Source of the DNA: a virus
IMG/VR virus record: IMGVR_UViG_3300008216_000029
Coordinates: 1-36,564 of that record
Reading direction: 5' to 3' (one strand)
Length of the DNA stretch: 36,564 nt
Positions 988-36,564 of the stretch are shown piece after piece; position 1 is the stretch's first letter, and each line of letters starts with the position of its first letter. The translations under genes were made by a program, and so were the position numbers. The notes below the pieces were generated by a model. It worked only from the letters and a program-made list of their open reading frames with translations, searched no databases and was not told where the DNA came from.

Positions 988-992
988 TCGAT

Positions 993-1208: not shown

Positions 1209-1259
1209 CATTGCCATGGAGTTTGGCGTGTGCTATGTTTCGGAAGGAAGGAGGTGACT

Positions 1260-4139: not shown

Positions 4140-4404
4140 AGTTGTTCCAGGGCGCGTTGTCCGGCCGGAGGACCTGAACATGGGGGTCACGGTCCCGGGG
4201 ATGGGCTTCCACAAGGTTCAGGTAGCCATTGACAAGATGGCGACAGGATGCACCGGGGTTCTGCTTGTGTTCAAGGACAAGGAGTCGGCGGAAAAGTGGG
4301 GCGGAGATGTTCCCCTGCTGTACCTTTCTGAGCCTACCGATCACGACACTGGTGAAGAAGAGCCCTCTCGTACCGAAGACGACGGACCATCCATCCCCCG
4401 CTGA
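4132..4404 (+). CDS. Small hypothetical protein, last gene of the left plus-strand operon
   Basis: A 90-residue protein overlapping the previous gene by 8 nt. The first 65 residues look folded (VGVTVPGMGF-like opening, HKVQVAIDKMATGCTGVLLV, then FKDKESAEKWGGDVPLLYL), and the C-terminus is acidic and probably disordered (TDHDTGEEEPSRTEDDG). No known motif is visible. Its final 71 nt lie antisense to the nested lipoprotein candidate at 4334-4582, so the two convergent operons meet tail to tail here without an obvious bidirectional terminator. Confidence 0.55.
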   Translation: MSEVVPGRVVRPEDLNMGVTVPGMGFHKVQVAIDKMATGCTGVLLVFKDKESAEKWGGDVPLLYLSEPTDHDTGEEEPSRTEDDGPSIPR

Positions 4405-4582
4405 CCGTCCACGACCCGTCAAGGTTCCTTTGGATCTCCGTCTTCCCCAGCGCGACTGGGCGCAATTCCGGCCTCGGACAGCATGAGGTCATGGTCGTCA
4501 AAAGCAGCAGCAACAGCACCAAGATCGCCCCTGTCAAGACCGTGCAGAAGCGCAGATTCCCGCTCTCTGATTTGTCTTGCAT
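4334..4582 (-). CDS. Nested lipoprotein, Rz1-like outer-membrane spanin candidate
   Basis: An 82-residue frame inside and beyond the 4419-4673 gene, in a different frame. A strong TAAGGAGG site precedes the ATG at 4582 with a tight 3 nt gap. The N-terminus has a hydrophobic core (VLTGAILVLLLLLL) ending in a lipobox-like TMTSC, as in Rz1 lipoproteins. The mature part contains LDGSWTVSGGWMVRRLRYE, which resembles the W.VS..WM..RL..E pattern of short phage lipoproteins. Rz1 genes are classically nested within or overlapping Rz genes, which matches this layout. A caution: the poly-Leu run comes from GCT/CTG repeats that also give Ala-rich sequence in the other frame. The end overlaps the convergent gene at 4132-4404. 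Confidence 0.55.
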   Translation of the reverse strand: MQDKSESGNLRFCTVLTGAILVLLLLLLTTMTSCCPRPELRPVALGKTEIQRNLDGSWTVSGGWMVRRLRYERALLHQCRDR

Positions 4583-4673
4583 GAGCCTCCTTAGACTTTT
4601 CAGCCAGCAGAGGAGCCAAGATACGGAGAACAACGGTCAGCGCCTCGATTAGCCCTCGAAGCGCCGAGATCAA
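4419..4673 (-). CDS. Small hypothetical protein, possible inner spanin partner
   Basis: An 84-residue protein if started at TTG 4673, which overlaps the stop of the upstream lipoprotein (TTGA). The N-terminal stretch LIEALTVVLRILAPLLAE is hydrophobic or amphipathic, followed by a charged helix (KSKEAHARQIRERE) and an acidic tail. A short hydrophobic segment plus helix would fit a reduced Rz-like inner-membrane spanin, and a lipoprotein frame is nested in it. A much longer ATG-started frame to 4883 runs through the lipoprotein gene and is unlikely. The function is inferred from position only. Confidence 0.5.
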   Translation of the reverse strand: MISALRGLIEALTVVLRILAPLLAEKSKEAHARQIRERESALLHGLDRGDLGAVAAAFDDHDLMLSEAGIAPSRAGEDGDPKEP

Positions 4674-4828
4674 TTGGTTACGCCTTCGGGCATATTGACG
4701 TCTCCAGTTGGCGTTCCCTCGGCCGGAAGGTCGGTGGACCCATCCAGGTCGCTCGGCGCCTCCTGGCCGCGGCATCCACTGGCCACCGCGAATATAAATA
4801 GTAGCGCAAAGGCAAGCAGAACTCTCAT
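4670..4828 (-). CDS. Short lipoprotein in the lysis cassette
   Basis: A 52-residue lipoprotein. MRVLLAFALLFIFAVASGC is a near-ideal type II signal peptide with lipobox VASGC, so cleavage would leave a mature peptide of about 34 residues rich in Asp, Pro and Gly. The ATG at 4828 overlaps the stop of the holin-like gene (ATGA). It is an outer-membrane lipoprotein candidate that may act with the spanin-like genes downstream in disrupting the outer membrane. A Gram-negative host is implied. The family is not named by any other motif. Confidence 0.65.
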   Translation of the reverse strand: MRVLLAFALLFIFAVASGCRGQEAPSDLDGSTDLPAEGTPTGDVNMPEGVTN

Positions 4829-5019
4829 TTTGTTTTCCCCCCACCGTCCTTGGCACGGCCAACCACAAGGGCAACAACCTCAATGATCTTATAGACTTTC
4901 GCCAGCATCCTGTCGTCCTTTGGGGTTGGCGTCATCGCGGTAATTGCAGATGCAAGGGCATGGGCCGCAAGGGCGAGGGCCACAATCTGCTCCCAATTTG
5001 AACTCACATAGTCAATCAT
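4825..5019 (-). CDS. Small holin-like membrane protein
   Basis: A 64-residue protein beginning MIDYVSSNWEQIVALALAAH, with a hydrophobic helix around residues 10-28, then the conserved TPTPKDDRMLAKVYKIIE and a second hydrophobic patch (VVALVVG), ending in a Lys-rich tail. This arrangement recurs in small proteins of phage lysis regions that are often suggested to be holins. The start has a good AGGAGG. It is followed by lipoprotein genes; upstream on the same strand is the endolysin, now separated by an opposite-strand HNH gene. The holin role is inferred from size, topology and position. Confidence 0.6.
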   Translation of the reverse strand: MIDYVSSNWEQIVALALAAHALASAITAMTPTPKDDRMLAKVYKIIEVVALVVGRAKDGGGKTK

Positions 5020-5061
5020 GGTTCCTCCTGGTGGGTTTCAACAACGCGCAGGGTGCCCGAT

Positions 5062-5514
5062 ATGAAGGTTTGTAGCAAGTGTAAATCAGAAAAGCCGATC
5101 GACGAATTCTTCCGCGACAGAACCAAGAAGGATGGGCGCAACACGCAGTGCAAGGTCTGCAAGAGAATCGCCATAACCGCCTGGAGAAAGAGCCCGCGGG
5201 GTAGGAAAAAACAGAACGCCAAAAACAGGGCCCGATACAAGAGGGGCCTCAAGAAGAACAGGGACAGAAGAAGGAAGATCAGAAAGGAAAGGCCGTGGCT
5301 CCCAAGGTTTCACCGACACGTCTACTATGCCGTTCTGCACGGGACGTTGCCCAGGCCAAGCCACTGCGAAGACGCGGACGGGACGTGCGTCGGGTCTCTA
5401 CACTACCACCACGATTCCTATCTTCCCGGGAACGAGCTAAACGTTCGCCCCCTTTGTGCGCGGCACCACAAAATCTGGCACCTGAACAACAAGGCAATCA
5501 CCCCCGAAAAGTGA
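5062..5514 (+). CDS. HNH homing-type endonuclease, inserted against the lysis operon
   Basis: A 150-residue basic protein. The N-terminus carries two CxxC pairs (CSKC and CKVC) typical of a zinc ribbon. A Lys/Arg-rich linker follows (residues 45-80). The C-terminus has HYHHDSYLPGNELNVRPLC and then HHKIWH, the beta-beta-alpha-metal HNH core. Such free-standing HNH genes are usually mobile. This one lies on the plus strand between two minus-strand lysis genes, overlapping the endolysin 3' end by 17 nt and leaving the flanking genes intact. ATG 5062 (MKVC) is preferred to GTG 5053. It nicks or cuts DNA; whether it moves itself or aids packaging cannot be told. Confidence 0.85.
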   Translation: MKVCSKCKSEKPIDEFFRDRTKKDGRNTQCKVCKRIAITAWRKSPRGRKKQNAKNRARYKRGLKKNRDRRRKIRKERPWLPRFHRHVYYAVLHGTLPRPSHCEDADGTCVGSLHYHHDSYLPGNELNVRPLCARHHKIWHLNNKAITPEK

Positions 5515-6193
5515 TGGGTAGGTCCTTGTAGTCCCTTCCGGGGCTCTTTCTCTCGAAGTGCATACAGTCGAGCATTCTCCACCGGCCACCCCAGCCCCAG
5601 CCGGCGCGCTCAAACACCCGAACAAACTCTGGATATTTGGAGTGGAACAGGCACTGCCCGCCGGTGGACCTGTCAACGCACCCCATGGAGTTGCGTGCCG
5701 GGTCAAAGTCGACCGCAATACCCCACGAGTGATAGCTAAGCTTTCCGCCGGGCTTTGTGGATATTTTCCTTGGGACGTAGGTCTGCGTGCTCTTTGGGGT
5801 GTACCCGCTGGCCTCGCAGGCCTCTTTGTATATGCGGGCGAACTCGTCACCGACAAGGCGGTGCATTCGCCTCTTCCTTCCGTCATGCAGCAGGAACCAG
5901 CGGATGTTTTTCCGCTCCCACGCATCGTCGATGTCAATAAACCGGCCCTTGGTGTGCTCCCACGAGAAGTCGCCGTAAACCTGTCTTACGCCGTGCCTGC
6001 TGGTTGGGATGGGTATCGCCCCGTCTCGCGGCGGTTCGCTGCGTCTGGTCAACGCACGGGCGCTTTTTCGGCCCCACTTTCCATCGGCCACCACACCAAG
6101 CTCAGACTGTGCAAACTGAATCGCGGACACCAACTCGCCCCAAGAAAGAGCGCCGCTGGTGAGGCGGTCCTTCAGCCAGCTTTCGGCGGTCAT
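5498..6193 (-). CDS. Endolysin, M15-family peptidase (L-Ala-D-Glu / D-Ala-D-Ala type)
   Basis: A 231-residue protein. Residues 20-50 (ELVSAIQFAQSELGVVADGK then WGRKSARAL) resemble a short peptidoglycan-binding repeat. The C-terminal domain has SYHSWGIAVDFDP (metal ligands His155 and Asp162) and RMLDCMHFE (catalytic Asp209, ligand His212), the HxxxxxxD...DxxH set of M15/VanY metallopeptidases that cut peptide cross-links of the cell wall. A GWGWGGRW stretch just before the last motif is typical of phage members. No signal peptide is seen, so it would need the holin to reach the wall. It overlaps the upstream small membrane-protein gene by 4 nt (ATGA). Confidence 0.9.
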   Translation of the reverse strand: MTAESWLKDRLTSGALSWGELVSAIQFAQSELGVVADGKWGRKSARALTRRSEPPRDGAIPIPTSRHGVRQVYGDFSWEHTKGRFIDIDDAWERKNIRWFLLHDGRKRRMHRLVGDEFARIYKEACEASGYTPKSTQTYVPRKISTKPGGKLSYHSWGIAVDFDPARNSMGCVDRSTGGQCLFHSKYPEFVRVFERAGWGWGGRWRMLDCMHFERKSPGRDYKDLPITFRG

Positions 6194-6438
6194 GACTGGA
6201 TGTGTCTCTGCTCGTGAACCTGGACCCAGGTCCGGAGTTCCTGCACATCAACGTGTAGTTCCCGGCGGCTCTCGCTGGCGGCCGAAAGCATCTCGTCGTG
6301 TCTTTTGATCAAAACCATTGCGATGTCGATCTTGGAGTCGATTGACTTGAGCAGTCCGCCAAGCCTCCACCCGACCGCAGCTATTGTGAAAAGGAAGCCA
6401 ATGGCGGTCACAACGGCGGCGATCTCTTGCCAACTCAC
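6190..6438 (-). CDS. Small single-pass membrane protein (holin or pinholin candidate)
   Basis: An 82-residue protein with a hydrophobic segment at about residues 6-30 (IAAVVTAIGFLFTIAAVGW), followed by an amphipathic coiled-coil-like region (SKIDIAMVLIKRHDEMLSA) and a His/Arg-rich end. It starts with GTG overlapping the upstream stop (GTGA) and overlaps the endolysin start by 4 nt. A single N-terminal helix with a soluble helical tail is seen in some holins and in XhlA-type proteins. Its position directly before the endolysin supports a lysis role, but the sequence alone does not prove it. Confidence 0.55.
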   Translation of the reverse strand: MSWQEIAAVVTAIGFLFTIAAVGWRLGGLLKSIDSKIDIAMVLIKRHDEMLSAASESRRELHVDVQELRTWVQVHEQRHIQS

Positions 6439-6740
6439 TTCTTTTTCGCCCTGGCCTTTGGCTTCGGCATCTTCGGCGGGGGTGGTGGTGGGTTGAGGTC
6501 TAGCTCTTCAGACACGCGGTACCCGTTGTCCTCAATCCACCTGTAGATGCCGGTGGCCGATCTGATCGACGGAATGTAGCCGAACATCCTGCACTCATCC
6601 GGTGGTGCAACCCTTCCGCGGACCATGCTGACATAGCCGACCACCCCAACCCTCTTCCCCTTTGAAATGGGGATTGCCGGGCTCTTGTCCGGGTCCTTGG
6701 TGATGTACACGCACTTCTTGCTGTAAAGATGCTTCTTCAT
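6435..6740 (-). CDS. Hypothetical protein with Pro-rich basic tail
   Basis: A 101-residue protein from ATG 6740, which overlaps the upstream stop as ATGA; a longer in-frame start at 6773 lies inside the upstream gene and is less likely. The body (KCVYITKDPDKSPAIPISKG, then GVVGYVSMVRGRV) looks like a small beta-rich domain. The C-terminus is low complexity: six consecutive Pro followed by KMPKPKARAKKK. The tail may bind nucleic acid or act as a flexible linker. It sits between a structural gene and the lysis genes. Family not recognised. Confidence 0.5.
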   Translation of the reverse strand: MKKHLYSKKCVYITKDPDKSPAIPISKGKRVGVVGYVSMVRGRVAPPDECRMFGYIPSIRSATGIYRWIEDNGYRVSEELDLNPPPPPPKMPKPKARAKKK

Positions 6741-7492
6741 TCGGTGAGCACTCCGTAAATCCAGACGTCCCACTCAGAGGTCGCCGAGGCGGTGGTTGTT
6801 TCGATCCCAACCCTTGAAAACCCGTAGTTTCTTACGACCATTGTTATCGTGGTCGCCTCTCCCTTGCTCGTGGCACCAGCGTTGGCGGTAACGGTGGTGG
6901 CCGGGGTGTTCTGCGTGAAGGTGGCGGCGCCAGCGTCGGAGTCGGCGGTAAGGATCGGCGCGGGACACCAAAGGCCGACCAAGTTCGAGTAAACAACGGG
7001 CTTGATTGTGCCGGTCTCACTGCCGGTGTCGTGGTTGCTCAGGGTCGCGACAAGGGTGAGGTAGTCCGATGCCGGGAACGCAAACCCCTCTGACGGCTGG
7101 ATCATGGTTAGCCCGCGGGTCCCCTCGTAGGCTCGTTGCTTGTAAATCACAGAGTCAATTGTGATGGTTTGGTCCAGGTCACCGAAAAGAACGTTTACGC
7201 TGATGGGGCTTCCATCGTCGCTTGTCAACGTGACAACAGCCGACGCCACGGTGGCCGTGCAGCCGCCCATCCCATCAACAAGGGCCTGAATGACAGAGGC
7301 CGTCTGTGCCGCTGTATTGGCAATGTCGATGACCGTCTCTTTGGCCGGGTTGCCGGAGTCGGAAAGCTCGTTGTTTATTTTGATCCTCACCCAGCCCGCA
7401 GCAGCGCCCTGAACGCCAGATACGGTAATCGTAGCCTCCGATGTCTTCAGCGCCGACGTCGTTCCGACGAGGGATGTTGTTCTTTTGATCAT
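6737..7492 (-). CDS. Probable virion structural protein
   Basis: A 251-residue protein rich in Thr, Val, Ala and Gly, with alternating polar/apolar strands and almost no long helices, for example SEATITVSGVQGAAAGWVRI and TANAGATSKGEATTITMVV. It lacks enzyme motifs. This composition and its place at the end of the structural cluster fit a minor capsid decoration, tail or fibre-like protein. Similar Thr/Gly-rich composition is seen in the protein at 17292-17873. Overlaps of 4 nt on both sides show that it is part of a continuous leftward operon. Confidence 0.5.
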   Translation of the reverse strand: MIKRTTSLVGTTSALKTSEATITVSGVQGAAAGWVRIKINNELSDSGNPAKETVIDIANTAAQTASVIQALVDGMGGCTATVASAVVTLTSDDGSPISVNVLFGDLDQTITIDSVIYKQRAYEGTRGLTMIQPSEGFAFPASDYLTLVATLSNHDTGSETGTIKPVVYSNLVGLWCPAPILTADSDAGAATFTQNTPATTVTANAGATSKGEATTITMVVRNYGFSRVGIETTTASATSEWDVWIYGVLTE

Positions 7493-7824
7493 GATTCCTC
7501 CGGCGGCGCCTTGTTGACCCTTGGCCGGCCGCGCTTCCTTTTCGATAGAACCCCATGAATGAGGGGGGTGTCTGCAATCTTCTTTACGAGTAGCTCAAGC
7601 TCAGCAAGACGGGCGCGAAGCTCTTCAACCTCACCGCTCTCTTTCGCCGGCGCAGGCGAGCGGGACAGGCGGTCCTGGATTTTGTCGACCGAGTCGACGA
7701 GATAGCCGACGACAGAGTAGATGTGTCCCGGCCCAACGTGGTGGGTGCCCCGAAGAAACCCCCGATACTCCCGTCGCCGAGCGGGACTGTTATCGAACCG
7801 AATAAATCCATTTCCGTCTACCAT
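7489..7824 (-). CDS. Small coiled-coil protein with basic GRPR motif
   Basis: A 111-residue protein. The middle has a clear heptad-like stretch (EVEELRARLAELELLVKKIA), predicting a coiled coil and probably an oligomer. Near the C-terminus is KRKRGRPRVNK, which contains the GRP core seen in AT-hook DNA-binding motifs, although a single short motif is weak evidence. The N-terminus includes GFIRFDNSPARRREYRGFL. The ATG overlaps the stop of the giant protein gene by 7 nt, so expression is probably coupled. Possibly a virion or DNA-associated protein; the function is unknown. Confidence 0.5.
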   Translation of the reverse strand: MVDGNGFIRFDNSPARRREYRGFLRGTHHVGPGHIYSVVGYLVDSVDKIQDRLSRSPAPAKESGEVEELRARLAELELLVKKIADTPLIHGVLSKRKRGRPRVNKAPPEES

Positions 7825-10800
7825 AGTCCTTCCTCGGTCAGCTTCCTTCCCTTTTCCACGTCGGCCTCGACGTCTTCGCCGCCGAACACGTCCTGCACCA
7901 CCCCAAGCAACGAGGTGATCGCCCCGTTTGTTATGGAAGAGCCAACATCGGAGGCCATAACGTTGTCGCCTTTTTTCAACTTCTTTTCAAGGGTTAGCCA
8001 CTGTTTGGACAGCTTCTTCGCTTCCCTTCGATATGCTGATCTGTCGATCGTTCCCATCAAGTAGGACAACCTTACAATCTCGTGGGTGACCCGAAAGTGC
8101 AGCATTAGCCCCGTCCGGTCCAATATCTGCTTGTCCTTTTCGTTCAGCGGGCTGTACTTGGCCCCAAATCTGGCGGCCTGCCCCTTGTACCCATACATCC
8201 TTGCTCTGGAGGCCGATCGGACTTGCTCCCACATGTGGGCTTGAGAGACCGCTGTGATCCCAAGGCCGGGAAACAGGGTCTTTGACACCGCAGACACGGG
8301 GTCAACGGGATACTGCTTCTTCCTGACGGTATAGAGGTGCCCTTTTGATGCTGCCTCAATGGAGTTGCGGTTTTCTCCAAATATCATGGACATGGGGCCG
8401 GAACGGCTCCAGGACCTGACGGGGGTGAACATGTGGACCAACTGCTGAATTTGCCTGTACACGTATGGGGCGATTGTCGGCTCCCCAGGCGGAACCATCT
8501 CTCCCGTTGCGAGGCTCTCAAAAGACTTGTCCTGGAGTCCACTCCAAATTTGCATAGACCAGTCCGCGAACGGGCTCAGTCTGGCGACCTTACGGTCTAG
8601 TTGCCGGCCCCCTTGAAAGTCCATCATAAAGTTGGCCGTGTTGCCGATGTCCCTCAAGTTCAGGGTCCGCGTGAGGTGGAGCATGTTCCCGCTCTTTAGC
8701 CAGCCGTGCATGGCCTTTACCATGGGGCCGCTCCAGCCCAGATCTTGCGCCGCGTTGGCCAAGTCGGTTCCGCCGTTTAGAACAAGATGGGATGCGCCAA
8801 ATGTGTTCATTGCGGCGAGGGAGTGCCTTCCGTAGAAAGCTATTTCTGCACCCATCGAACCGCCCGGGTTCATGGATGTTTTGATCTGCTCTCCCGGAAT
8901 AACGCGGTCAGCCTCTTCTCTGATCTGCTCGTCATAGGCATTCATGCCCTGGAGCACCATCCAGGCGGCGAGGGCATCGGGGTTGTTCAGGGCATTCCTC
9001 ATCACAAATGCGGACTGCTTCACGCCGTAGGTGGCAAACGGTGGAACGTACAGGGAGGTCACGGGCCCAAGGCGGTATCCATTGACGTCCTGGACCTTGC
9101 GAAGCCAGCGGGGTCTGGCGCTGTAGTCGTGAACCGTGTCTTTCGCCCACTGTACTGCCGCAGAATCAGAGAGCTTTAGCGCCCTTTTGGCAATCTTATA
9201 CGCGAAAATGCGGCGGGACGACTCCTCTTTGATGGTCCACCTTGCAATTGCCGTGTCCGCAAGCTCTAGGTTCGCCTGCCGGACTGCGCCCCGTCCTCCA
9301 GTCCAGATGTATTTTAGGCCGCGCTCTTCTGCTGACTCCTTTTGCCAAGCCCTCCTTAAGCGAACGTACCTATCCCAAACCCCTTTCTTCAGGCGCTTTT
9401 TGACCGCGTTTGGAATGGCCGCCGTACCTGTTTCGTACAGTTCAGAGATAAACCGAACCTTGGCGAGGACCTCTGGCAACCTGAAGTCCATCCCATCAAT
9501 GGCCGCGGGCATGATCTCGTCGCCAATCAGCCCGCCAAGCTGGGCCCTTGCGTTTAGGTCCCCTGTGATCGCTGAGGCGCCGAGGCCCCGTGGCTCAATA
9601 AATCCGTCGCTCAACAGCCTTTTGATGTCGGGCGAGATGGTGTCGTCCTTGAGCCATGCGGTGGTTTCCTTCGCCGCCTGTCTTTTCAGCTTGATCCAAA
9701 CGGCGTCAATTGGGCTTAGCCCAGACCTGCTTGCGACGTTAAGAAGATCTCCAATTTCGTTTCTGATTTGGTAGCCCGGGAAATTATACATCGTGTGGAT
9801 GATCTTCCAGGTCGTCAGAAGCTGTTGGGTTTGAGAGAAGCTGTCGCGGGCGAGGCGAAGGTTTGTTGCAACCTCGTGCGGGACGTACTTTCCGGCCATC
9901 TTGCCGAACATGAAGTTGTACGGGTCAGCGCTGGCGGCCTTTTTTGATTCGACGTCACGGAACGAGGCGACCCGCGTATAGCCCGGCTTTGGCTTTGAGA
10001 AGAGGAGCCCGTTTGATTTGAGGCTGTCGTGTAGCTCTGAGAAGAAGTGAAGGTTCGCGATGATCGCGTCGGTCACGTCGATGCTGTTTTTGAGTGCATA
10101 CTCGCTAATGAACCCGGTTGGGTCGTCGACGTGCATGTTGTAGAGCCTGACCTGGGAGTCGACCTCGGACTGCTTTCTGGCATGTCTTTGCGGTGTTCTG
10201 TGCATCGGAACGCCGTAGGACATCTGCTCCCGGTCTATTTGTATCTGCCTGTAGCTCTCGGTGGCGTCATTCCACAGTCTGGTTGTGTATGTGTTCAGCC
10301 TCTTGAAGATCACCTCTGGGTCGACGCCCAGAAGCCCGGGCAGGGACTCCTGTTGCCGGCGGATGATCTGATAGTAGCTATAGAGCGCAGAGTTTGGGTC
10401 TGACATCTCCCTTGCGAGCGTCTTGACCAGCAGGGGCGCATCCGGGTCGGCCGAGATTCGGATCGACGGGTCCGTCTTCATCAACTCAACAAAAAGCTCT
10501 TTCCTCTTCTTTGCCTCCTTCTTGGAGAACTTGGACTTGATCTTGTCCACTGAGGCCAGAAAGGTGTCTTCTGGCTGGATGGACGTAAGGGCCCCGCGCT
10601 CTGACACCGGAAGCTCAAATCCTTTCTTCCCCTTCATCCTGGACTGAATGTCGCCAAACAGCGCGGCTTGCTCTGAGCCGGACTCGGCGGGGGTCCACCG
10701 ATAAACGGCCCCATCGTCCGACCGAGTGAGCATATAGTCCACCCAGGCGGCGTTGCCGCGAACAGAGTCCGCGTTCTTCTTGAACATTGCCAGAACAGTC

Positions 10801-13800
10801 CTGTGCCCGGTCGTCACGCCCTTTTTGTCTTTTGGTCCGCTCTTGGCGATCTTGCGGGCGTTTGTGGTAATGGCTTGGTAAAGCGTCGCCGCGGTTCCGA
10901 GTGAGTTAGGGTCGAGCTTGTCGCCGACGACTGCCCCCAAGAACTCGCGGCCGGGCCTCGGCACGCGAGAGATCGCGGGTAGCTCTGCGTCGATGACACT
11001 GTCGCCAATCATGGCGTATTCCTGCGGAAGCAGACCAGACCGCCGTTTCCCGCGACTGGCGGCCCTTGTTGTCGCGACATGACTTCCGTGACCACGAGTC
11101 TCTGTTGTCAGCGCCCAGCGCGCCCAAGGAGACCTTGTCATCTCCATGTGTGCCATCCACCCCCTTTCACGAGCAAGAAGGCTCTTCTTCGTCTTTGGTG
11201 CGGACTGGGTGTAATAGCTGTGAACGGCGTTGAGGACGTCGCCCATGAGGAGCGGCTTTCCGGCGGTATCTACAAACTCTGTCGGCCGGAGCATTGGATG
11301 GCTTGGGTCTGCAAACGACTTGGGGTTGGTCGGGGCAATCCGCACCCTGTTGTGGTTCATGACGTCGTCGTCAAAAGCTTTTGACGAGGCGTACCTCTTC
11401 TTGGACAGGGTGACCTTCACCGGCAGCAGCCGGTACTGCTCGGTCAACTCAGAGGCGAGTTCCGAATATGCCCTGGCGGACTGTGGGTCGGCGGTGTCCG
11501 CATCAGGCAAACGGCCGTAAGCCGCGGCAATGGCTGCCTGCTTGTCCTTGTCGGCCTTGGTTGGTCTGGCCTTTGATGCCGGCGCCGTCGAGCGATGTTG
11601 GGCTATTCTTGCCGCGATTCGTCTTGATGTCCTTGCGGCACCTTCCGTCGCGGGATGAACGTCGCCTGCATTGGCCCTGTATGAAAGAGGTCCGCTTCCC
11701 TTATCACTGTAAATCCAGAGTCTTCTAGTTCCCGTAGAGACCTTTCGAACTCCTCCTCGAAGTCCATGAATGAGCTTGCTCTTCTGCCTGTTCCAGGTGG
11801 TTCTGTCTTTGGCATTTTCCGGGTCTCCAACAAAATATACTTCTATGAAGTCGTCTGAAAAGGTGGCTCCATAAATCCCCGACTTCTTGATTGCCTTCTC
11901 GATTTGGGCCCGCGACAGCTTCTTGGAAAGAGATATGTGGACGGAGCGGGTGTTGTACGAACCATCGGCGTGTACCCCACCAAACCTTGAGCCTTTCGGC
12001 AGAACACCGCGAACATGGATTTCCTCTTGGTTGAAGTTCTTTCCAAACCTCATGAGGCCGGCCCTTACCGCCGGCTCGTCTGCCTCGGCGAATGATACCA
12101 CAAGACCGAGTGAAGACTCAAAGTCTCCCCCGTACAGCCCAACCGTCCGATTTGCCTTGATTTCTACAGACTCGATGCCGCTCAGTAGGTGCTTGACCGA
12201 GTCGAAGGCAATGTCGGAGACGAGATGCTGGGCCGACAGGTCTCCTTTCGACGCCAGCGTGTTGAGCAACTCAAGGCCGCCGATTGAGCCCGTCCGCGAC
12301 GAAAGATTCACGTCAATAGACACCTCCGCCTCGCCGGCAGACAGGGGCCTCCTTCGCTCGACCGCGAGGCCAGCAAGGCCCTGCTGGTCTGGTTGCGCGT
12401 GACCCGTGGGCGGCGGCGGTATCGTGGGCTCCGCGTCTGGAATGTTGTTGGCAACGGCGTCGACAACAACACGGCTGGCATACGCAATGTTCGCCTCTAT
12501 GTCGGCTGGACTGACCCCAACATCCTCCATGAACTTTCTAAGCCGGGCCAGTGCAGCCGCGTCCTCTGTCGAGGGAATAACCGACTCGGCCTCTCTTGCC
12601 CAGACCGCCAGATTCTCCACCCCATCAGCCAGGGCAGCCTTCATGTCAACGATGGGCAGGCCCGATCTTTTGTCGTACACGAGTGAGCCTTGAATGCCGA
12701 AATACGCGATTCGCTCCGCATCTAGGTCTGAGATCGGTCGACCGTGATCTTTCGCCGCCGCAGTCTTTATAGTCTCCACCAGATAGGCCATGCTGCCCGG
12801 GTTCGCGACGGCGCCGCGCTGCTCGCTGGTGGCAAAGAAGCTCCGGTGGGGCTTCAACTCGTCGTTGAGCGCGACCAGCAACTGGCCGGCGCCGGTGTGG
12901 ACGTCCCAAACGATGGGCTTTAGCCATGTTGGCGTTGAGTAGAACAGGCGGTGCGCCCAGGGCTGCAGAACCAGCGCCCTTTCTGGAACGGGCTCTTTCT
13001 TGAGAAACGACCCAATGCGCCGCGTGAATCTTGGGGGAATTTTGTGATAGACCGGCTCGCCGGCGGGGGTCTTTAGAAAAACGTCTTTTCCGGCAACCTT
13101 GTCAAGCCTTATGTGCTCGACACCCGCCTCGCCGGCAGCCCGCACGCCCGCAAAAACCTTCTGCGCCGAGTTGGCCAGGGTGTTTGACTGGTAAGACGAC
13201 CTGTACGCCGCGATGGCTGCGCCAGGGGCGCCGCGGACGGGGGACACTTTGCCAAGCCTTGGCCGAGCCTGAACCTTCGTGCCGCGAATTGCCATCCCGC
13301 CCTTCGCAGCCATCCACGGGCCCGCAAGAGACTCGACCGGATAGACCCAAAGGGCCTCCAGGCCGGCCTCCATTTTTGTCTCCATGTCTCCGGGGGTGTG
13401 GATCGCCACGGCAACAGGAAGGGCCATTGACTCAAGAAGGGCCGTGGCTCCCTGTTTTGCGCTTCTGAATGTCCTTGAGGCGTGAGATGCTGGGGAGAGA
13501 TTTCCGCTAATCAAAGATCTCTTGATTGCATTGAGCGACTCCTCCCCCTTTACATATGAGTCCTCCCCCCAGGCGCCGTATTTGACCCTCGCCGCAACAT
13601 GACCGGCAGCCCAGGCCATCTCTCGCCACGAAACAACGCCGGCGGTCATCGCCATGAGCGGGATCGCGCCATAAATTGCGGTTGCCCCCGCAAGGGCGTT
13701 TAGTGGGGTTTGGATAAGCAGGTTCTCCATCCAGAGGTTTGAGCCAAGCCCCGGAAGTTCCTCGTCGGTGACGGCGGTCCCGCCAGCCCTGGCTATGTCC

Positions 13801-31554: not shown

Positions 31555-31574
31555 AGGCCAGACAATGCAATGGG

Positions 31575-31600
31575 ACTCTCTCGAATCTCTCTCTCTCTCT
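31575..31600 (+). promoter_or_regulatory. CU-repeat tract complementary to downstream GA-rich ribosome-binding sites
   Basis: The tract has a short ACTCTCTC and, 5 nt later, a pure 15-nt TC alternation (31586-31600). The ribosome-binding sites of the downstream operon are GAGAGGGAG, GAGGGAGAG or GAGAGAGAG, which can pair with CUCUCU over up to nine or more bases. The tract may sequester ribosome-binding sites or interact with a host protein. It could also be a simple slippage repeat. Confidence 0.4.
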
Positions 31601-31610
31601 AATGGGCCTC

Positions 31611-31713
31611 CGGTCCTGCCTTTGGGCAGGGCTGGGGGCCCGCCAATGCTTCCGACTACCGGTCGGCGGCATCGGCCGGCAAATCAATCCTGGTTTGCTG
31701 TTTATGAGAGGGA
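31611..31713 (+). promoter_or_regulatory. Leader of the rightward accessory operon (diverged two-hairpin element)
   Basis: A hairpin CCTGCC-TTTG-GGCAGG (31615-31630) and a second hairpin CCGAC-TACCG-GTCGG (31652-31666) precede GAGAGGGA (31706-31713) and the first ATG. The order, hairpin, hairpin, GA-rich ribosome-binding site, is the same as in the nine intergenic elements downstream, but the sequence itself is unrelated, and no TTTCTAG box is present. Confidence 0.35.
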
Positions 31714-31716
31714 ATG

Positions 31717-32130
31717 ATGAGAAAAATTGAAACCAGAATCAACGACATTGTGCTGGGTTGTCTGCGTGGTAAGTACGCCAAATCGTTCGACAAGCAATTG
31801 ACGAAACGGGACCGTATTCGATACCAGCGGGAGGCCTGCACCGTCGACGTGTTCCTGTGGAACAGCATCATTGCAACGTTCGCGGTACCGGGGCCGATAC
31901 GGTCAATATCCGCGACTACATGCAGCATTTCACACTGCGGATACGAAACGTCGACTACCAAGTCCAGGTTGAATGCACTGCTGGGGGCCTTTCACCGCGA
32001 TGACGCAAGTCTGTTTCAGCGGGACTTCGTCTGGCATATCAGCGTCGACACCCCAACCCGACACAAAACGGCCAAGTTCGACAGACTGACCACCAACGGT
32101 GGTCGGTACAGGTTTCTCGTTCACTGTTGA
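31717..32130 (+). CDS. Conserved phage protein of unknown function
   Basis: A 137-residue basic protein if started at ATG 31717 (5 nt after GAGG); ATG 31714 is also possible but lies too close to the site. The N-terminus (IETRINDIVLGCLRGKYAKS) is helical. The C-terminal half has SHCGYETSTTKSRLNALLGA and SLFQRDFVWHISVD, a pattern I associate with small phage proteins of unknown role (GY.T.TTKSR.NALL...LFQRDF). No catalytic residue can be named. First gene of the rightward operon and followed by element 1. Confidence 0.6.
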   Translation: MRKIETRINDIVLGCLRGKYAKSFDKQLTKRDRIRYQREACTVDVFLWNSIIATFAVPGPIRSISATTCSISHCGYETSTTKSRLNALLGAFHRDDASLFQRDFVWHISVDTPTRHKTAKFDRLTTNGGRYRFLVHC

Positions 32131-32216
32131 GTGTTTCTAGTCTGCACAAGCCTCCGGGTTTGTGCAGGCAATGAAGCCCTGCAATTTCGCAGACTTCGAA
32201 TAGAGAGGGAATGAAA
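32131..32216 (+). repeat. Two-hairpin intergenic element 1
   Basis: TTTCTAG box, then hairpin 1: 32140-32152 pairs with 32157-32169 (13 bp, loop UCCG). ATGAAG follows. Hairpin 2 is CTGC-AATTTC-GCAG (32179-32192). The GA-rich site TAGAGAGGG ends just before the next gene. A 10-codon frame (MKPCNFADFE) runs from the ATGAAG to the TAG of that site. Confidence 0.85.
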
Positions 32217-32450
32217 ATGAAAACCAATTCAACCAGTTGGCTGCCGGCATACATCCGCAACAGCGATATTCGACCTCCGGAAGGGCGCCCAGAGCGCATC
32301 AAGGAAGCCCTGCTGCGGTGGTTCAATGTCGGCGGCAAATACGACCAGGACATCGTCATCGAAGACGACGCCGCGGTCTACTCCGACACCGTCCGGGGCG
32401 GCTACTGGGTAAGAGCGGCCGTGTTTGTGCCGACCACAGAGACCTTCTAG
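32217..32450 (+). CDS. Small hypothetical protein
   Basis: A 77-residue protein from ATG 32217, 8 nt after GAGG; an in-frame ATG at 32211 is only 2 nt away from that site. The N-terminus has SWLPAYIRNSDIRPPEGRPE, then an amphipathic helix (RIKEALLRWFNVGG), then likely beta strands (QDIVIEDDAAVYSDTVRGGY). No known motif. Flanked by elements 1 and 2, which share the most similar hairpin 2 and linker sequences of the series, so this gene sits in a recently duplicated cassette junction. Confidence 0.55.
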   Translation: MKTNSTSWLPAYIRNSDIRPPEGRPERIKEALLRWFNVGGKYDQDIVIEDDAAVYSDTVRGGYWVRAAVFVPTTETF

Positions 32451-32533
32451 CCTTCTAGGCTGCACAATCTTCGGATTGTGTAGCCGATGAAGTCTTGCAA
32501 TGTCGCAGACTTCGAATAGAGAGGGAGCACAAG
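32451..32533 (+). repeat. Two-hairpin intergenic element 2
   Basis: TTCTAGG box, hairpin 1: 32458-32469 pairs with 32474-32485 (12 bp, UUCG loop). Linker CGATGAAG. Hairpin 2 is TTGC-AATGTC-GCAG (32495-32508) with a U-G pair where element 1 has C-G. TAGAGAGGGAG precedes the gene. Short frame MKSCNVADFE, one codon-for-codon close relative of the element 1 frame. Confidence 0.85.
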
Positions 32534-32905
32534 ATGGCAACTCAACGACAGAAAGAGCAGGTTGCTCGTAAGGTGGCGAAAGCATTGGCGAAGGTTAGCA
32601 GTCTCGGCGCGGGACAACAGTTCGGCGTCGACAAGCCGCAGAGCGTTGCCAAGCGAGCACAAAACCTGCTCGACAGCAGCGGTCAATATGGGGCTTACAT
32701 CGTGCCCGGTGACCCGAATGAGTGGTCTGGCGGCGAACCGCTGGCTACCATCTATATGGAGCAGCACGGTGGCCCCGGAGACTGTGTCCTGCCGCTAGAC
32801 TACTACAACTTCGGCGACGAGGACTCCTGCAAAGCCAGCGCCTTGCTAGGCAACTACTTCATTGAATTCAACAATGCGGCGGTTGCTCACGTTTGGCCGG
32901 TGTAG
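32534..32905 (+). CDS. Hypothetical protein
   Basis: A 123-residue protein from ATG 32534; the ribosome-binding site GAGGGAG lies 6 nt upstream, so the longer frame from 32495 is rejected. A basic helical N-terminus (RQKEQVARKVAKALAKVSSL) is followed by a region with likely strands (QYGAYIVPGDPNEWSGGEPL, TIYMEQHGGPGDCVLPLDYY) and a final hydrophobic strand (AVAHVWPV). It resembles many phage early proteins in size and charge, but no motif identifies it. The stop lies directly before element 3. Confidence 0.55.
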   Translation: MATQRQKEQVARKVAKALAKVSSLGAGQQFGVDKPQSVAKRAQNLLDSSGQYGAYIVPGDPNEWSGGEPLATIYMEQHGGPGDCVLPLDYYNFGDEDSCKASALLGNYFIEFNNAAVAHVWPV

Positions 32906-33006
32906 TTTTCTAGGCTGCACAAGCCTTCGGGTTTGTGCGGCCGATGAAGCTCTGCACGACAGACTTCCGCATACCATTCCGGTGTGCGCTTTAGAGGGAG
33001 AGAATC
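32906..33006 (+). repeat. Two-hairpin intergenic element 3
   Basis: TTTCTAGG box, hairpin 1: 32913-32925 pairs with 32930-32942 (13 bp, UUCG loop, one G-U). Hairpin 2: CGCATAC (32968-32974) pairs with GTGTGCG (32982-32988), loop CATTCCG. Compared with element 7, a G-C pair is replaced by A-U and a U-A pair by U-G. Short frame MKLCTTDFRIPFRCAL ends in the TAG of TAGAGGGAG. Confidence 0.85.
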
Positions 33007-33375
33007 ATGACAAACCCAACAAGTATCGAAAGGCTCCGCTATCTGGCACGTGAATTGCGTTCCGGAAAGCACGAGGAGACGGCCGGCAGCCTTAAGCTGG
33101 GCGGCCAAAGGTGTGCTCTTGGCGTTGCCTGCGACATCATACTCAACGAAAGCCAGACAGGCCTGGAATGGAGCCCGGTAGAGGAGGGAGCCCGGTGTAA
33201 CACCTTCTGGTGTCCCGAAACAGGCGAACGGCATTCCGCGATGGATGAGGTCCGACTGTACTTCATGGTTCCAAACGACGCGATTTGCCGAATTGCTGGG
33301 GCCAATGACGAGGCCAACGAAGGCGAAAGGCACGCCGCGGCGGCAAAAGCGATTGACCGCATCATCGGCGACTGA
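33007..33375 (+). CDS. CALGVACDI-family phage protein, paralogue 1
   Basis: A 122-residue protein. An N-terminal helix (IERLRYLARELRSGKHEETA) leads to the family core GGQRCALGVACDIILNES, then an insertion with CxxE-like WCPETGERHSAMDEVRLYFM and the terminal GANDEANEGERHAAAAKAID helix. The same scheme, L.SG.Y...L....R.CALGV..D......L.....ND......A..I, is known from a common family of small phage proteins of unknown function (often with FCCLGVLCDL). The next genes at 33469 and 34771 are paralogues. The function is unknown; the conserved Cys could be structural or catalytic. Confidence 0.7.
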   Translation: MTNPTSIERLRYLARELRSGKHEETAGSLKLGGQRCALGVACDIILNESQTGLEWSPVEEGARCNTFWCPETGERHSAMDEVRLYFMVPNDAICRIAGANDEANEGERHAAAAKAIDRIIGD

Positions 33376-33468
33376 GTGTGTTTCTAGGCTGCACAATCTC
33401 CGGATTGTGCGGCCGATGAAGCATTGCTTCCGCGTCCCGTTTGGGACGTGCACATTGGAGAGAGGGAT
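33376..33468 (+). repeat. Two-hairpin intergenic element 4
   Basis: TTTCTAGG box, hairpin 1: 33387-33398 pairs with 33403-33414 (12 bp, UCCG loop, one U-G). Linker CGATGAAG. Hairpin 2: CGTCCC-GTTT-GGGACG (33433-33448), a fully different stem sequence from other copies, but the same shape and place. GAGAGAGGG precedes the next ATG. The ATGAAG frame (MKHCFRVPFGTCTLE) runs out of frame into the next gene. Confidence 0.85.
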
Positions 33469-33834
33469 ATGTTTACTGAAACACAAACGGAAAGGCTCAA
33501 GTATCTGGCTCGCGAACTGCGGTCCGGCAAATACCCTGAGTGCGCTGGGCAACTGCGACGAGGCGAGCGTTTCTGCGCTATCGGTGTCGCTTGCGACATA
33601 CTTGTGAACGAGACGGACAAGGGTTTGTGCTGGGAAGGCGACGAGGCTGGCAAGCGGCTTGCACATGCCGATGAACGGCATGGTGCCGCCGATTGGTCAA
33701 AGCAGGTCGGCGGCTACTTCGGCTTGTCCACAAACGAGGCCCTGTCCATCGCTGATGCCAATGACCACGGCGCGAGCGCCGGAATGCGACACGAGGCCGC
33801 GGCACGGGTCATCGATGCGCTGGTCGACAGCTAA
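33469..33834 (+). CDS. CALGVACDI-family phage protein, paralogue 2
   Basis: A 121-residue protein. RLKYLARELRSGKYPECAGQ aligns with paralogue 1, followed by GERFCAIGVACDILVNETDK, with Ile replacing Leu. The C-terminal region GYFGLSTNEALSIADANDHG followed by RHEAAARVIDAL also aligns with it. The middle differs completely and carries a His-rich stretch (AHADERHGAADWSK). The start is fixed by GAGAGAGGG just upstream. Similarity to paralogue 1 is strongest in the first 60 residues, indicating duplication within this operon followed by divergence, with the two copies separated by element 4. Confidence 0.7.
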   Translation: MFTETQTERLKYLARELRSGKYPECAGQLRRGERFCAIGVACDILVNETDKGLCWEGDEAGKRLAHADERHGAADWSKQVGGYFGLSTNEALSIADANDHGASAGMRHEAAARVIDALVDS

Positions 33835-33930
33835 GCCTGTTTCTAGTCTGCACAAACCCAAACAGTTTGTGCAGGCAATGAAGCAACGCTTCCTTGCGCC
33901 ATTTGGCGCATGAATAGAGAGGGAGATACT
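33835..33930 (+). repeat. Two-hairpin intergenic element 5 (heptaloop variant)
   Basis: TTTCTAG box, hairpin 1: 33846-33857 pairs with 33865-33876 (12 bp), but the loop is CCAAACA instead of a UNCG tetraloop. Hairpin 2: TGCGCC-ATTT-GGCGCA (33895-33910). TAGAGAGGGAG precedes the next gene. Short frame MKQRFLAPFGA ends before that site. Confidence 0.85.
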
Positions 33931-34125
33931 ATGTTCAACGACCCGAAGGGCCTTATCGGCCGACCGGACACGTCCACCAGGAAGGGCCGACGGTACTACC
34001 GCAAGCTCTGCCGCATTGCCGCCAAGAAGGCCCGTCGAGCCCTCTTCCGGCGCGACCGGAGCCCTGCTCCCCCGCCCTGCTGGATGTGCCTCGACGCGGC
34101 CGCCCAGTGGTGCCCGGAGTGCTAG
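33931..34125 (+). CDS. Small basic protein with CxxC-x7-CxxC zinc-ribbon-like end
   Basis: A 64-residue protein from ATG 33931; an upstream in-frame ATG at 33910 lies inside element 5 and before its ribosome-binding site. The middle is strongly basic (GRRYYRKLCRIAAKKARRAL, FRRDRSP). The C-terminus reads CWMCLDAAAQWCPEC, i.e. CxxC, seven residues, CxxC, which could bind zinc and ends the chain at the last Cys. Small basic zinc proteins of phages often bind nucleic acid or host RNA polymerase, but nothing here proves such a role. Confidence 0.55.
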   Translation: MFNDPKGLIGRPDTSTRKGRRYYRKLCRIAAKKARRALFRRDRSPAPPPCWMCLDAAAQWCPEC

Positions 34126-34232
34126 TCTGCATTCCCCAGTCTGCACAATCTCCGGATTGTGCAGGCAAGGGAGTGTGTAATGTCGGCTGGGAATTTCCCC
34201 AGCAGTCTCGCAGACTTCAATGAGAGAGAGAA
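34126..34232 (+). repeat. Two-hairpin intergenic element 6 (diverged)
   Basis: A partial duplicate AGTCTGCA precedes hairpin 1: 34139-34150 pairs with 34155-34166 (12 bp, UCCG loop). The linker lacks ATGAAG (GGCAAGGGAG instead). Hairpin 2: GCTGGG-AATTTC-CCCAGC (34186-34203). GCAGACTTC, shared with elements 1 and 2, follows, then GAGAGAGAG before the ATG. Confidence 0.8.
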
Positions 34233-34673
34233 ATGCAAATTACATCCAGAAACGGATACTCTCCGCAGCCCGGAGAGCGTGTCCGCATCTACTGGAATTT
34301 CCACAAGAAAACCTACTCCATCCAGGCCAAGCGCAAGGGTCGGTGGGTTGTCGTTGGCTACTCGGACCAGTTTGTGGTTGTCGACGTCTCGTTTGTGGTC
34401 TCCGATGCGGGTTGGCGGCGGGTGCTGCGGTCCGGCAGAAAGAACGTTCATGCCTTCATTTGCGGGGAGTGGGCGGGCGGCGACGTGGCCGACGCAACTG
34501 CAAGGATTGGCGCTATCGCTGGCTATGTGGTCACATACAACCCGCTCAGGGGTCCGGCGTTTAGAAGCCAGGGCGCGGAAATCAACACCTCCGGTGTGGT
34601 GGTCGGAAGAGTCTTTGCCGACGTCGCAATCCCCTGGGTCATCGCACAGCCGGAAAACAGAACCGCTGTTTGA
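34233..34673 (+). CDS. Conserved phage protein with GWRRVLRSGRKNVHAF motif
   Basis: A 146-residue protein, mostly predicted beta strand. The N-terminus (VRIYWNFHKKTYSIQAKRKG, RWVVVGYSDQFVVVDVSFVV) leads to GWRRVLRSGRKNVHAFICGE, a motif with an Arg/Lys patch and conserved KNVHA that I associate with small phage proteins of unknown function. The C-terminal half continues with VTYNPLRGPAFRSQGAEINT. No catalytic set is visible. ATG 34233 follows GAGAGAGAG by 3 nt. A nucleic-acid-binding role is possible because of the basic patch, but unproven. Confidence 0.6.
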   Translation: MQITSRNGYSPQPGERVRIYWNFHKKTYSIQAKRKGRWVVVGYSDQFVVVDVSFVVSDAGWRRVLRSGRKNVHAFICGEWAGGDVADATARIGAIAGYVVTYNPLRGPAFRSQGAEINTSGVVVGRVFADVAIPWVIAQPENRTAV

Positions 34674-34770
34674 TGTTTCTAGTCTGCACAATCTTCGGAT
34701 TGTGCGGGCAATGAAGCCGACAAACGGTTTCCGCATGCCATTTCAGCATGCGCTTTAGAGGGAGAGACTT
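34674..34770 (+). repeat. Two-hairpin intergenic element 7
   Basis: TTTCTAG box, hairpin 1: 34682-34693 pairs with 34698-34709 (12 bp, UUCG loop, one U-G). Linker GGCAATGAAG. Hairpin 2: CGCATGC (34732-34738) pairs with GCATGCG (34746-34752), loop CATTTCA. Short frame MKPTNGFRMPFQHAL ends in the TAG of TAGAGGGAG. Most similar in hairpin 2 to element 3; both precede CALGV-type paralogues. Confidence 0.85.
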
Positions 34771-35160
34771 ATGTTCACAAAGCAGCAAAAAGAGCGGCTT
34801 ACTGAGTGTGTTGAACTGCTGGAGACAAACCAATATCCGGCGGGCATGTCGCGGACGACGCTTCGCTCGATCGAGCGAGGTGAGGCGCAGTTCTGTGCAC
34901 TTGGGGTTCTTTTGGACACCGTTGTCAAGGAGGACGCGACCCTCCGGTGGGGAGACGGATACTGGGACAGTGATGTGATTTACCAAGACGACGGCCCCGG
35001 AGAGACATATCGGGTGTACCTGCCCGACATGCTTGAGAGCGCCTTTGGTCTGGGACCGGGGTTGTATGAGCAGGTACTTCAGGCCAACGATGGCGTCGAC
35101 GACGTCGCAGAGGCACACCGGGAGGCCGCCAAGGTCATCCGCAAGATGCTGGAAGAGTAG
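34771..35160 (+). CDS. CALGV-family phage protein, paralogue 3
   Basis: A 129-residue protein and the most diverged of the three paralogues. It keeps an N-terminal helix (QQKERLTECVELLETNQYPA), GEAQFCALGVLLDTVVKED (Cys, Ala, Leu, Gly, Val retained; the second Cys is replaced by Leu), and a C-terminal QANDGVDDVAEAHREAAKVI helix. The middle has LPDMLESAFGL, the LP..v...GL step seen in other members of this phage family. ATG 34771 has GAGGGAGAG 5 nt upstream. Its place two genes after paralogue 2 suggests repeated cassette duplication in this operon. Confidence 0.68.
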   Translation: MFTKQQKERLTECVELLETNQYPAGMSRTTLRSIERGEAQFCALGVLLDTVVKEDATLRWGDGYWDSDVIYQDDGPGETYRVYLPDMLESAFGLGPGLYEQVLQANDGVDDVAEAHREAAKVIRKMLEE

Positions 35161-35268
35161 TGTGTTTCTAGGTCGCACAAACCCAAACAGTTTGTGCGGC
35201 CGATGAAGCGCGCAACCGAAGCTGGACCATTTCGGTCTGGCGGTATGTGCGGTTCAGTGGAGAGAGAG
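35161..35268 (+). repeat. Two-hairpin intergenic element 8 (heptaloop variant)
   Basis: TTTCTAGG box, hairpin 1: 35171-35182 pairs with 35190-35201 (12 bp), loop CCAAACA exactly as in element 5. Linker CGATGAAG. Hairpin 2: GCTGGACC (35221-35228) pairs with GGTCTGGC (35234-35241), 8 bp with two G-U, loop ATTTC. GGAGAGAGAG precedes the ATG. Here the ATGAAG frame is in frame with the next gene. Confidence 0.85.
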
Positions 35269-36252
35269 ATGACTGCGAATGTAGAGACCATGATGTATGC
35301 CGGGCAAACACCTTGGCATGGCCTTGGAGTCCACGTCGGCGACCTTGCCGTTACAGCCCAGGAAGCCATTGTGGCGTCCGGGCTCGACGACTGGCACATC
35401 GAACAGCGACCACTGCAGTATCCAGGCCCCGGGTTCCAGCCCGTGGCTGCCGGTAATGGAATGGCGCTAGTGCGGGTCAATCGGCCGGGCACTCCCGCGT
35501 TTGCACAGTTTGGCGCTGAGGTTTGGTTTGCTAACCAGACCAAGGCCTACAATATCGTGCAAAATCGAGATGCGTTTGACTGGGTCGACAAGTATGGCTT
35601 GAAGGTCGAGACCGCAGGAAGCCTTTTGGAGGGTCGCAAGATTTGGATTTTGTGCCCTATCAACGGGACGTTCCAGCCGACGGCTGGCGACGAGCACAAG
35701 GCCTATTTGCTGTTTGCCAAAGGGCACGACGGTAAAATGGGGAATGTGGTCAAGCTCGTCATTGAGCGGGTCGTCTGCTGCAACACGCTTGCGGTGGCCC
35801 TGTCGGAAAAGGGAATTCAGTGCAAAGCAAGCCATCGCAAGAATGTGATGGCGAGGCTGGATGACTTTGGACAGTTGGTTGGCCTCGTTGAGAAAAAGGT
35901 CAGCGATTACGCCGCCCTGGCGACGATGCTGGCTGGCAAGGTGATGACCGCGGCTGCCTGGGATGAGTTTGCTCTGCAGATTGTCCCCAACCCGGTCAAA
36001 CGGCCGGATGGGACGCTTCCCAGCACGGTGAAGGCAGAGAATAAGCGCTCTGTCCTGCACAAACTGTTCAACAGCGGGCGTGGCAACGCGGGCAAGACTG
36101 CCTTCGACGCCTTGAACGCTGTAACGGAGTGGACTAACTATCACTCTGTTCCTAGCCAAGACCAGTCAAAGCGGCTGGATTCGGCGTGGTTTGGCAGGGG
36201 CGACGGGCTCAACCAGCAGGCTGTTCAGGTGCTCCAGAATATGTACGCATAG
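35269..36252 (+). CDS. DUF932 phage/plasmid-like protein
   Basis: A 327-residue protein. The opening TMMYAGQTPWHGLGVHV, then AFAQFGAEVWFANQTKAYNI, FDWVDKYGLKVETAGSLLEG, RKIWILCPI and VVKLVIERVVCCNTLAVALS follow the block order of DUF932 (TIGR03299) proteins, found on phages and plasmids and with no established biochemical role. The block CCNTLAVAL followed by FKAxHRKNV-like CKASHRKNVMARL is diagnostic. The chosen ATG has GGAGAGAGAG directly before it. In frame, codons extend 22 residues further upstream through element 8 to ATGAAG, without a ribosome-binding site. It is often proposed to assist recombination or anti-defence, but this is not proven. Confidence 0.85.
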   Translation: MTANVETMMYAGQTPWHGLGVHVGDLAVTAQEAIVASGLDDWHIEQRPLQYPGPGFQPVAAGNGMALVRVNRPGTPAFAQFGAEVWFANQTKAYNIVQNRDAFDWVDKYGLKVETAGSLLEGRKIWILCPINGTFQPTAGDEHKAYLLFAKGHDGKMGNVVKLVIERVVCCNTLAVALSEKGIQCKASHRKNVMARLDDFGQLVGLVEKKVSDYAALATMLAGKVMTAAAWDEFALQIVPNPVKRPDGTLPSTVKAENKRSVLHKLFNSGRGNAGKTAFDALNAVTEWTNYHSVPSQDQSKRLDSAWFGRGDGLNQQAVQVLQNMYA

Positions 36253-36359
36253 ACTGTGGCCTCACCAGGGCGCATGAGCTTCGGCTTGTGCGTCCGACTG
36301 AGGTTGGCAGGGTGCCGCCAATTTCAATTGGAAATAAGCGCACCACAATGGAGAGAGAG
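36253..36359 (+). repeat. Two-hairpin intergenic element 9 (diverged)
   Basis: No TTTCTAG box. Hairpin 1: 36268-36279 pairs with 36284-36295 (12 bp, UUCG loop), with several bases changed on both sides and pairing kept through G-U pairs. The linker has ACTGAG in place of ATGAAG. Hairpin 2: CCAAT (36318-36322) pairs with ATTGG (36327-36331), enclosed by GGTGC/GCACC (36311-36315 with 36340-36344). GGAGAGAGAG precedes the ATG. Confidence 0.8.
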
Positions 36360-36564
36360 ATGAAAAAGGAAAACAATGACATTCTGAGCACTTACATCGT
36401 TGCGACGATGGTGTATTCGGAGGCCTGCAACAAGGCGGAGCGAGGCGCACGCGACAAATTTGAATTCTCAGTGAGCTATGCTGCTGCGGATTCTCTTTCT
36501 GCCGCGAACGCAAAGCTTGGCGCCCTGGCCGACAAGTTCCCGGGATGCATCCAGAATGCTCGCC
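36360..36564 (+). CDS. N-terminal part of an unknown gene (cut by window edge)
   Basis: Sixty-eight codons remain open to the right edge, from ATG 36360 directly after GGAGAGAGAG of element 9. The sequence is helical and polar (NDILSTYIVATMVYSEACNK, SYAAADSLSAANAKLGALAD). No motif can be named from this fragment. It shows that the element-plus-gene pattern continues beyond the window. Confidence 0.6.
   Translation, partial: MKKENNDILSTYIVATMVYSEACNKAERGARDKFEFSVSYAAADSLSAANAKLGALADKFPGCIQNAR

Follow-up and report, generated by a model that had tools for sequence, protein, structure and literature searches.

In phage T7, RNase III cuts the early precursor RNA at five sites to yield mono- and dicistronic mRNAs (PMC4858673), and one of these sites, R1.1, which sits between genes 1 and 1.1, is described with a 4/5 internal loop (PMC6121014). 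In Cluster K mycobacteriophages, about half of the start-associated sequences (SAS) have a 17-bp inverted repeat just upstream, and the arms of these extended SAS (ESAS) do not co-vary, from which the authors saw little support for RNA pairing (PMC3203893). Here we describe a structured RNA element in a stretch of viral DNA of 36,564 nucleotides, positions 1 to 36,564 of IMG/VR virus record IMGVR_UViG_3300008216_000029 (hereafter the window). It is a real, selected RNA element, found at every junction along a run of small genes and absent from Rfam and from the sampled phages, and it would most likely work like the early processing sites of T7, with no sequence relation to them. Our literature search found no paper describing such an array.

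Pairing and selection in the junction element

A preliminary description, made from the sequence alone, had reported an element of 83-108 nt with two hairpins in all nine gaps of a gene array, and the gap lengths confirm this: the element fills every gap, with 86, 83, 101, 93, 96, 107, 97, 108 and 107 nt for E1 to E9. The search for more copies yielded two further elements in the overlapping contig L008, E11 and the variant E10, plus an incomplete twelfth, and none in any other sampled phage.

The order within a junction is the stop codon, helix P2, the sequence R-A-(U)-GAAG, helices P3 and P4 (serial or nested), a GAGAGGG-type ribosome-binding site and the ATG. P2, hairpin 1 of the preliminary description, starts 7-15 nt after the stop codon (32 nt in E11) and has the reported 12-13 bp (13 in E1 and E3). 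The TTTCTAG box and the ATGAAG linker turned out to be the two strands of an outer helix, P1, formed by the bases that flank P2. The reported box-hairpin-linker-hairpin series was thus incomplete, and is revised to a composite P1-loop-P2 hairpin followed by P3 and P4, in which P1 and P3 share a strand. ATGAAG occurs in seven of the nine junctions, as stated; the box is exact in six rather than seven, E2 having CTTCTAG. P1 is UUUC:GAAG in most copies, GCAUUCCC:GGGAGUGU in E6, CCUCA:UGAGG in E9 and UUUCC:GGAAA in E11. Between P1 and P2 lies a small internal loop, 2x3 in most copies, and two of its A residues, the one preceding P2 and the one in second position after it, do not vary among the ten aligned copies. 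The P2 stem GCACAA/UUGUGC is retained in most copies, with a C(UNCG)G cap in 8 of 11. Stable UUCG-capped hairpins of this kind also lie between genes of phage T4 (the intercistronic CUUCGG hairpins), where they are single and not known to have the context of P1, P3 and P4. P4, upstream of the Shine-Dalgarno (SD) sequence, is built from at least 8 different stems with a loop near AUUUC.

P2 is paired in 120 of the 120 cells given by ten aligned copies and 12 pairs, with five pairs changed on both sides, and P1 is paired in 82% of its cells in a fixed register. Together they hold 7 double-changed pairs and reach a covariation score of 0.354, against controls of 0.188 for shuffles (0 of 500 reach the observed score) and at most 0.135 for slid alignments. 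All covariation evidence comes from paralogous copies within one phage, the other two carrier contigs being near-identical, and these copies may have spread by gene duplication, so that cell counts are not event counts. The two types of stem base pointed out earlier recur as described, GUCU pairing with (A/G)GGC in E1, E5, E6 and E7, and GGCU or GGUC with (G/A)GCC in E2, E3, E4 and E8; E9 keeps 12 of its 12 pairs. Since all cells of the 12 aligned pairs are standard, no A-C combination occurs on the plus strand, in agreement with the claim that wobbles are plus-strand G-U only.

The P1 strands favour their own partners over those of other copies (fixed windows, permutation; p=0.0003, and p=0.003 without E6), with compensated helices in E6, E9 and E11. 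In the nascent fragment, the probability of P1 is 0.92, against 0.60 with its 5' strand shuffled (p=0.001). For all nine junctions the fold beats 200 of 200 dinucleotide shuffles, with z-scores from -4.3 to -5.9. A covariance model of the aligned copies, as the preliminary description had suggested, recovers ten out of ten at 55-70 bits; elsewhere in 0.5 Mb nothing exceeds 15 bits except the reverse strand of the same palindromes (at most 21 bits). The view of a selected RNA structure is thus upheld by covariation, P1 specificity, nascent P1 folding and the junction z-scores, and selection on the plus-strand RNA structure is strongly supported. The copies in the window, and the leader before the first gene, are as follows.

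31580..31713, plus strand: E0, leader before gene 1; three hairpins ordered as in the elements, with a CU-rich strand that pairs with the SD
32131..32216, plus strand: E1; P1 and P2 at 32131-32178, then P3/P4 and the SD
32451..32533, plus strand: E2; CTTCTAG variant, P3 fused with P4
32906..33006, plus strand: E3; P3 and P4 separate
33376..33468, plus strand: E4
33835..33930, plus strand: E5; P2 loop of 7 nt
34126..34232, plus strand: E6; P1 compensated
34674..34770, plus strand: E7; P4 homologous to that of E3, with a compensating pair
35161..35268, plus strand: E8; P2 loop of 7 nt, P4 nested inside P3
36253..36359, plus strand: E9; most diverged copy in the window, P1 CCUCA with UGAGG

The compensation in the P4 stem, from A-U in E3 to G-C in E7, can be read directly from the sequence; these two elements stand before genes 4 and 8, which are paralogues, and have common sequence around P4. 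In E10, P2 is a GC-rich stem unrelated in sequence to the main type. L008 holds a second element type at 10099-10190 and 11211-11270, whose hairpin CATCTGAGGAGCGGGGAGACACCTCCCCGTTCCGACTGTTGTC recurs in both E10 and the partial E12.

The E0 region (31570-31717, 148 nt) folds with a z-score of -10.1. It has the layout of the elements without their sequence, which makes it an analogue rather than a copy. The wider segment 31100-31713, about 600 nt between divergent gene sets with no evident gene, folds better than 20 of 20 shuffles (z -2.9) and has no Rfam match.

Besides its P1 partner, the GAAG strand has downstream partners (CUUC, GCUUC, CGGUUUC and others), with which it forms P3; P1 and P3 are mutually exclusive because both use it. 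In an RNA that begins just 3' of P2, GAAG is paired with a probability of 0.72, as opposed to 0.36 when the linker is dinucleotide-shuffled (p=0.0024), and its pairing exceeds the null mean in 10 of 11 copies. For the intact junction, the folding model favours P1 in E1, E5, E6 and E9 and P3 in E2, E3, E7, E8 and E10, with E4 and E11 split; nearest-neighbour energies handle multiloops poorly. Swap tests of P3 and P4 on hand-picked strands are biased toward pairing and were not relied on. Because the unbiased duplex swap test for P3 falls short of significance (p=0.09), we regard P3 as a probable helix rather than a proven one. The SD is unpaired at 0.57, against 0.42 in shuffled controls (p=0.0015), which indicates that the element does not mainly hide the ribosome-binding site.

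Proposed serial mRNA processing and alternative readings

The reading that we favour, with a probability of about 0.46, is that of a serial mRNA-punctuation element working like the early RNase III sites of T7. A double-strand-specific endonuclease, either the RNase III of the host or an equivalent enzyme, would cut the P1-loop-P2 hairpin at its internal loop. The upstream mRNA would retain P2 as a 3'-end hairpin, and the cut would free GAAG, so that P3 could close at the new downstream 5' end. P3 and P4 might then shield this end and leave the ribosome-binding site open, turning each early gene into a separate translatable message. That a host enzyme cuts at these elements appears most likely to us; we computed the pairing alone, and infer the cut and its consequences.

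The T7 sites R0.3, R0.5, R1, R1.1 and R1.3 are likewise serial at early-gene junctions, between the stop codon and the next SD, with a capped upper stem of 9-12 bp, a small asymmetric internal loop and a lower stem, and their upper stems resemble one another between sites. Folded with the same program, R0.3, R1 and R1.1 show a capped upper stem of 9-10 bp, a 2x3 internal loop and a lower stem (in R1, the lower stem has 5 bp, the loop is UA/AAU and the capped stem has 9 bp), a layout that matches E1, E2, E4, E5, E7 and E8. The difference between this 2x3 loop and the larger one given in the literature for R1.1 means that loop size depends on the drawing. Predicted pairs number 16-22 in P1 and P2 of the ten copies and 16-23 in R0.3, R1, R1.1 and R1.3. 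Unlike the T7 sites, the elements here have upper stems of 12-13 bp with mostly UNCG caps and no sequence match to them, occupy all junctions of about a dozen genes, and have a GAAG strand in common with a downstream helix and an additional P4; their cleavage is putative. A scan found no U-tract terminator and no sigma-70 promoter at the junctions; its terminator sites totalled 9 against 6.6 expected, none of them at the elements.

Several points weigh against processing of this kind. Run on T7, the covariance model gave at best 7.6 bits and matched no R site, so that the likeness is one of analogy rather than homology. At 4-8 bp, P1 is short, and in about half of the copies the intact-junction model prefers P3 to it; these copies would then be poorer double-strand substrates at equilibrium. 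The unbiased duplex swap test for P3 is not significant (p=0.09), for which reason P3 ranks below P1 and P2. T7 itself processes five sites rather than every junction (PMC4858673).

Foremost among the alternatives, if unlikely, is an array of protein-binding operators, in which a phage or host RNA-binding protein on P2 (through its conserved stem sequence and capped loop) or on the AUUUC loop of P4 would exert joint control of translation, stability or antitermination across the early operon. The near-constant AUUUC-like loop on varied P4 stems fits such a role, as does the retention of GCACAA/UUGUGC in most P2 stems even though pairing alone permits change. There is a precedent in T4 gp43, which binds a conserved-loop hairpin ~40 nt upstream of its start (PMC3014915); the hairpins lie at comparable distances, tens of nucleotides upstream of the start codon, but a single autoregulated gene is involved there and a whole operon here. 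No candidate protein was identified, however, the stem conservation is also explained by recent duplication of the copies, the P2 of E10 is unrelated in sequence, and E5 and E8 differ in their loop.

Rather more doubtful is a role as passive insulators that need neither cleavage nor ligand, with stable hairpins stopping exonucleases and ribosome read-through and keeping the following SD accessible. Stable C(UNCG)G-capped stems directly after the stop codons and an SD more open than the null are what such insulators would show, but they leave unexplained why P1, the internal loop, the shared GAAG strand and the P4 loop are retained.

Two further readings build on the exclusive use of GAAG. It is improbable, in our estimate, that each junction is a relay in which nascent P1 is later swapped for P3 (perhaps with box:SD pairing), the exchange being set by the terminating ribosome or a nuclease cut, so that the operon would form a dozen-gene chain of one-gene relays. 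We give still less credence to a folding switch that would link translation of the upstream gene to initiation on the next one, in which UUUCUA, GAAG, CUUC and the SD region form a chain with two exclusive folds, set by a ribosome terminating 7-15 nt before P2. P1 and P3 do have a common strand and are each supported, the box is within reach of a terminating ribosome in 10 of 11 copies, and box:SD pairing in a fixed register, picked after the fact, has a slight edge over swapped pairs (p=0.02). Against this, a shuffled box pairs with the SD as well as the real one does (p=0.40), and an unbiased test found no element specificity in this pairing (p=0.45). Masking the box as a terminating ribosome would do leaves mean SD opening unchanged (-0.07 against -0.32 kcal/mol for the null). 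As the SD is also more open, not more closed, than in controls, we rejected an SD-sequestering switch or ribosome-coupled relay as the leading explanation.

A DNA-level element (an attC-like cassette recombination site, a protein-bound inverted repeat or a mobile repeat) is very improbable: small genes between palindromes do resemble cassette arrays, and three of the genes are paralogues, but wobble pairs occur in the plus-strand sense only, the reverse strand scores at most 21 bits against 55-70, the integron attC core boxes RYYYAAC and GTTRRRY occur in 0 of 11 junctions, the element always lies between stop codon and SD in a single orientation, and there are no further copies in the record or in other sampled contigs. 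Of the roles first offered, RNA processing or stability thus fits best and cassette recombination poorly.

The SAS/ESAS of Cluster K also come in many copies, in a single orientation and upstream of the starts of non-structural genes, but the arms here co-vary and no common sequence was seen. The junctions have neither the 13-bp GGGATAGGAGCCC adjoining the start nor the non-covarying arms of an ESAS (PMC3203893). Searches of Rfam (riboswitches, ribozymes, leaders) gave no match at gathering score and chance-level matches only at a relaxed threshold.

Phage, genes and distribution

The window belongs to a tailed phage whose minus strand codes for a P22-type portal, a terminase and a major head protein. 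The closest portal matches are ~23% identical, cultured phages are all distant, and the annotated phages searched gave no DNA match. The array of rightward genes stands as first described, except that its first gene starts at 31714 rather than 31717. These genes are small and comprise members of the Kyano_Gp96, L5 gp82 and DUF932 families, three paralogues and unknowns; their kind and place suggest that they are early genes. Outside the array, the large genes of the window overlap or lie within ~65 nt of their neighbours, much as had been stated.

31714..32130, plus strand: gene 1, Kyano_Gp96 family
32211..32450, plus strand: gene 2, unknown
32534..32905, plus strand: gene 3, unknown
33007..33375, plus strand: gene 4, paralogue of genes 5 and 8
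33469..33834, plus strand: gene 5, paralogue of genes 4 and 8, phrog_18067
33931..34125, plus strand: gene 6, unknown
34233..34673, plus strand: gene 7, mycobacteriophage L5 gp82 family
34771..35160, plus strand: gene 8, paralogue of genes 4 and 5
35269..36252, plus strand: gene 9, DUF932
36360..36564, plus strand: gene 10, truncated by the window end, full-length in L008 at 9439-10098

The products of genes 4, 5 and 8 (33007-33375, 33469-33834 and 34771-35160) are 26-50% identical and have a CA(L/I)GV motif. L008 shows 9 differences from the window over their overlap of 9643 bases; five of the nine fall in gene 1 (window 31781-31984), and the elements are identical in both. L008 extends the operon by two further genes with elements in front and a partial element, followed by element-free genes, including one for a DUF3799 nuclease, which confines the elements to about the first dozen genes. 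Plus-strand genes at the window's left end, among them those for an IstB-like ATPase and a single-strand binding protein, are probably the continuation of the same rightward set.

Among the sampled viral and genome contigs, the carriers are two near-identical contigs of the same phage only, apart from chance single matches; a match in L006 and a weak one in L036, both inside coding genes, were dismissed as such. None of the contigs holding the portal relatives L034-L038 (67-80% identity) or the terminase relative L041 extends as far as the early region, and the sampled contigs gave no homologous phage that retains the genes without the element.

Five DUF932-bearing phage contigs of ~90-140 kb (L013, L019, L025, L026 and L032) have another arrangement, a motif pair (GGTTAGCAAA, ~15-20 nt, TGTAATA-like) before many genes, for example in L026 at 705-12277. 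A U-tract hairpin often directly precedes the pair; most junctions in these contigs appear to combine a terminator with a promoter specific to the phage.

Possible implications for early mRNA processing

The repeated element of this one operon offers a ready set of paralogues from which rules of mRNA punctuation might be read, in a phage far from cultured ones. If the elements are cut, they would represent T7-style processing of early mRNA in an unrelated phage lineage, in which the freed strand would form a built-in hairpin at the new 5' end. As modules, they might serve as gene-by-gene insulators.

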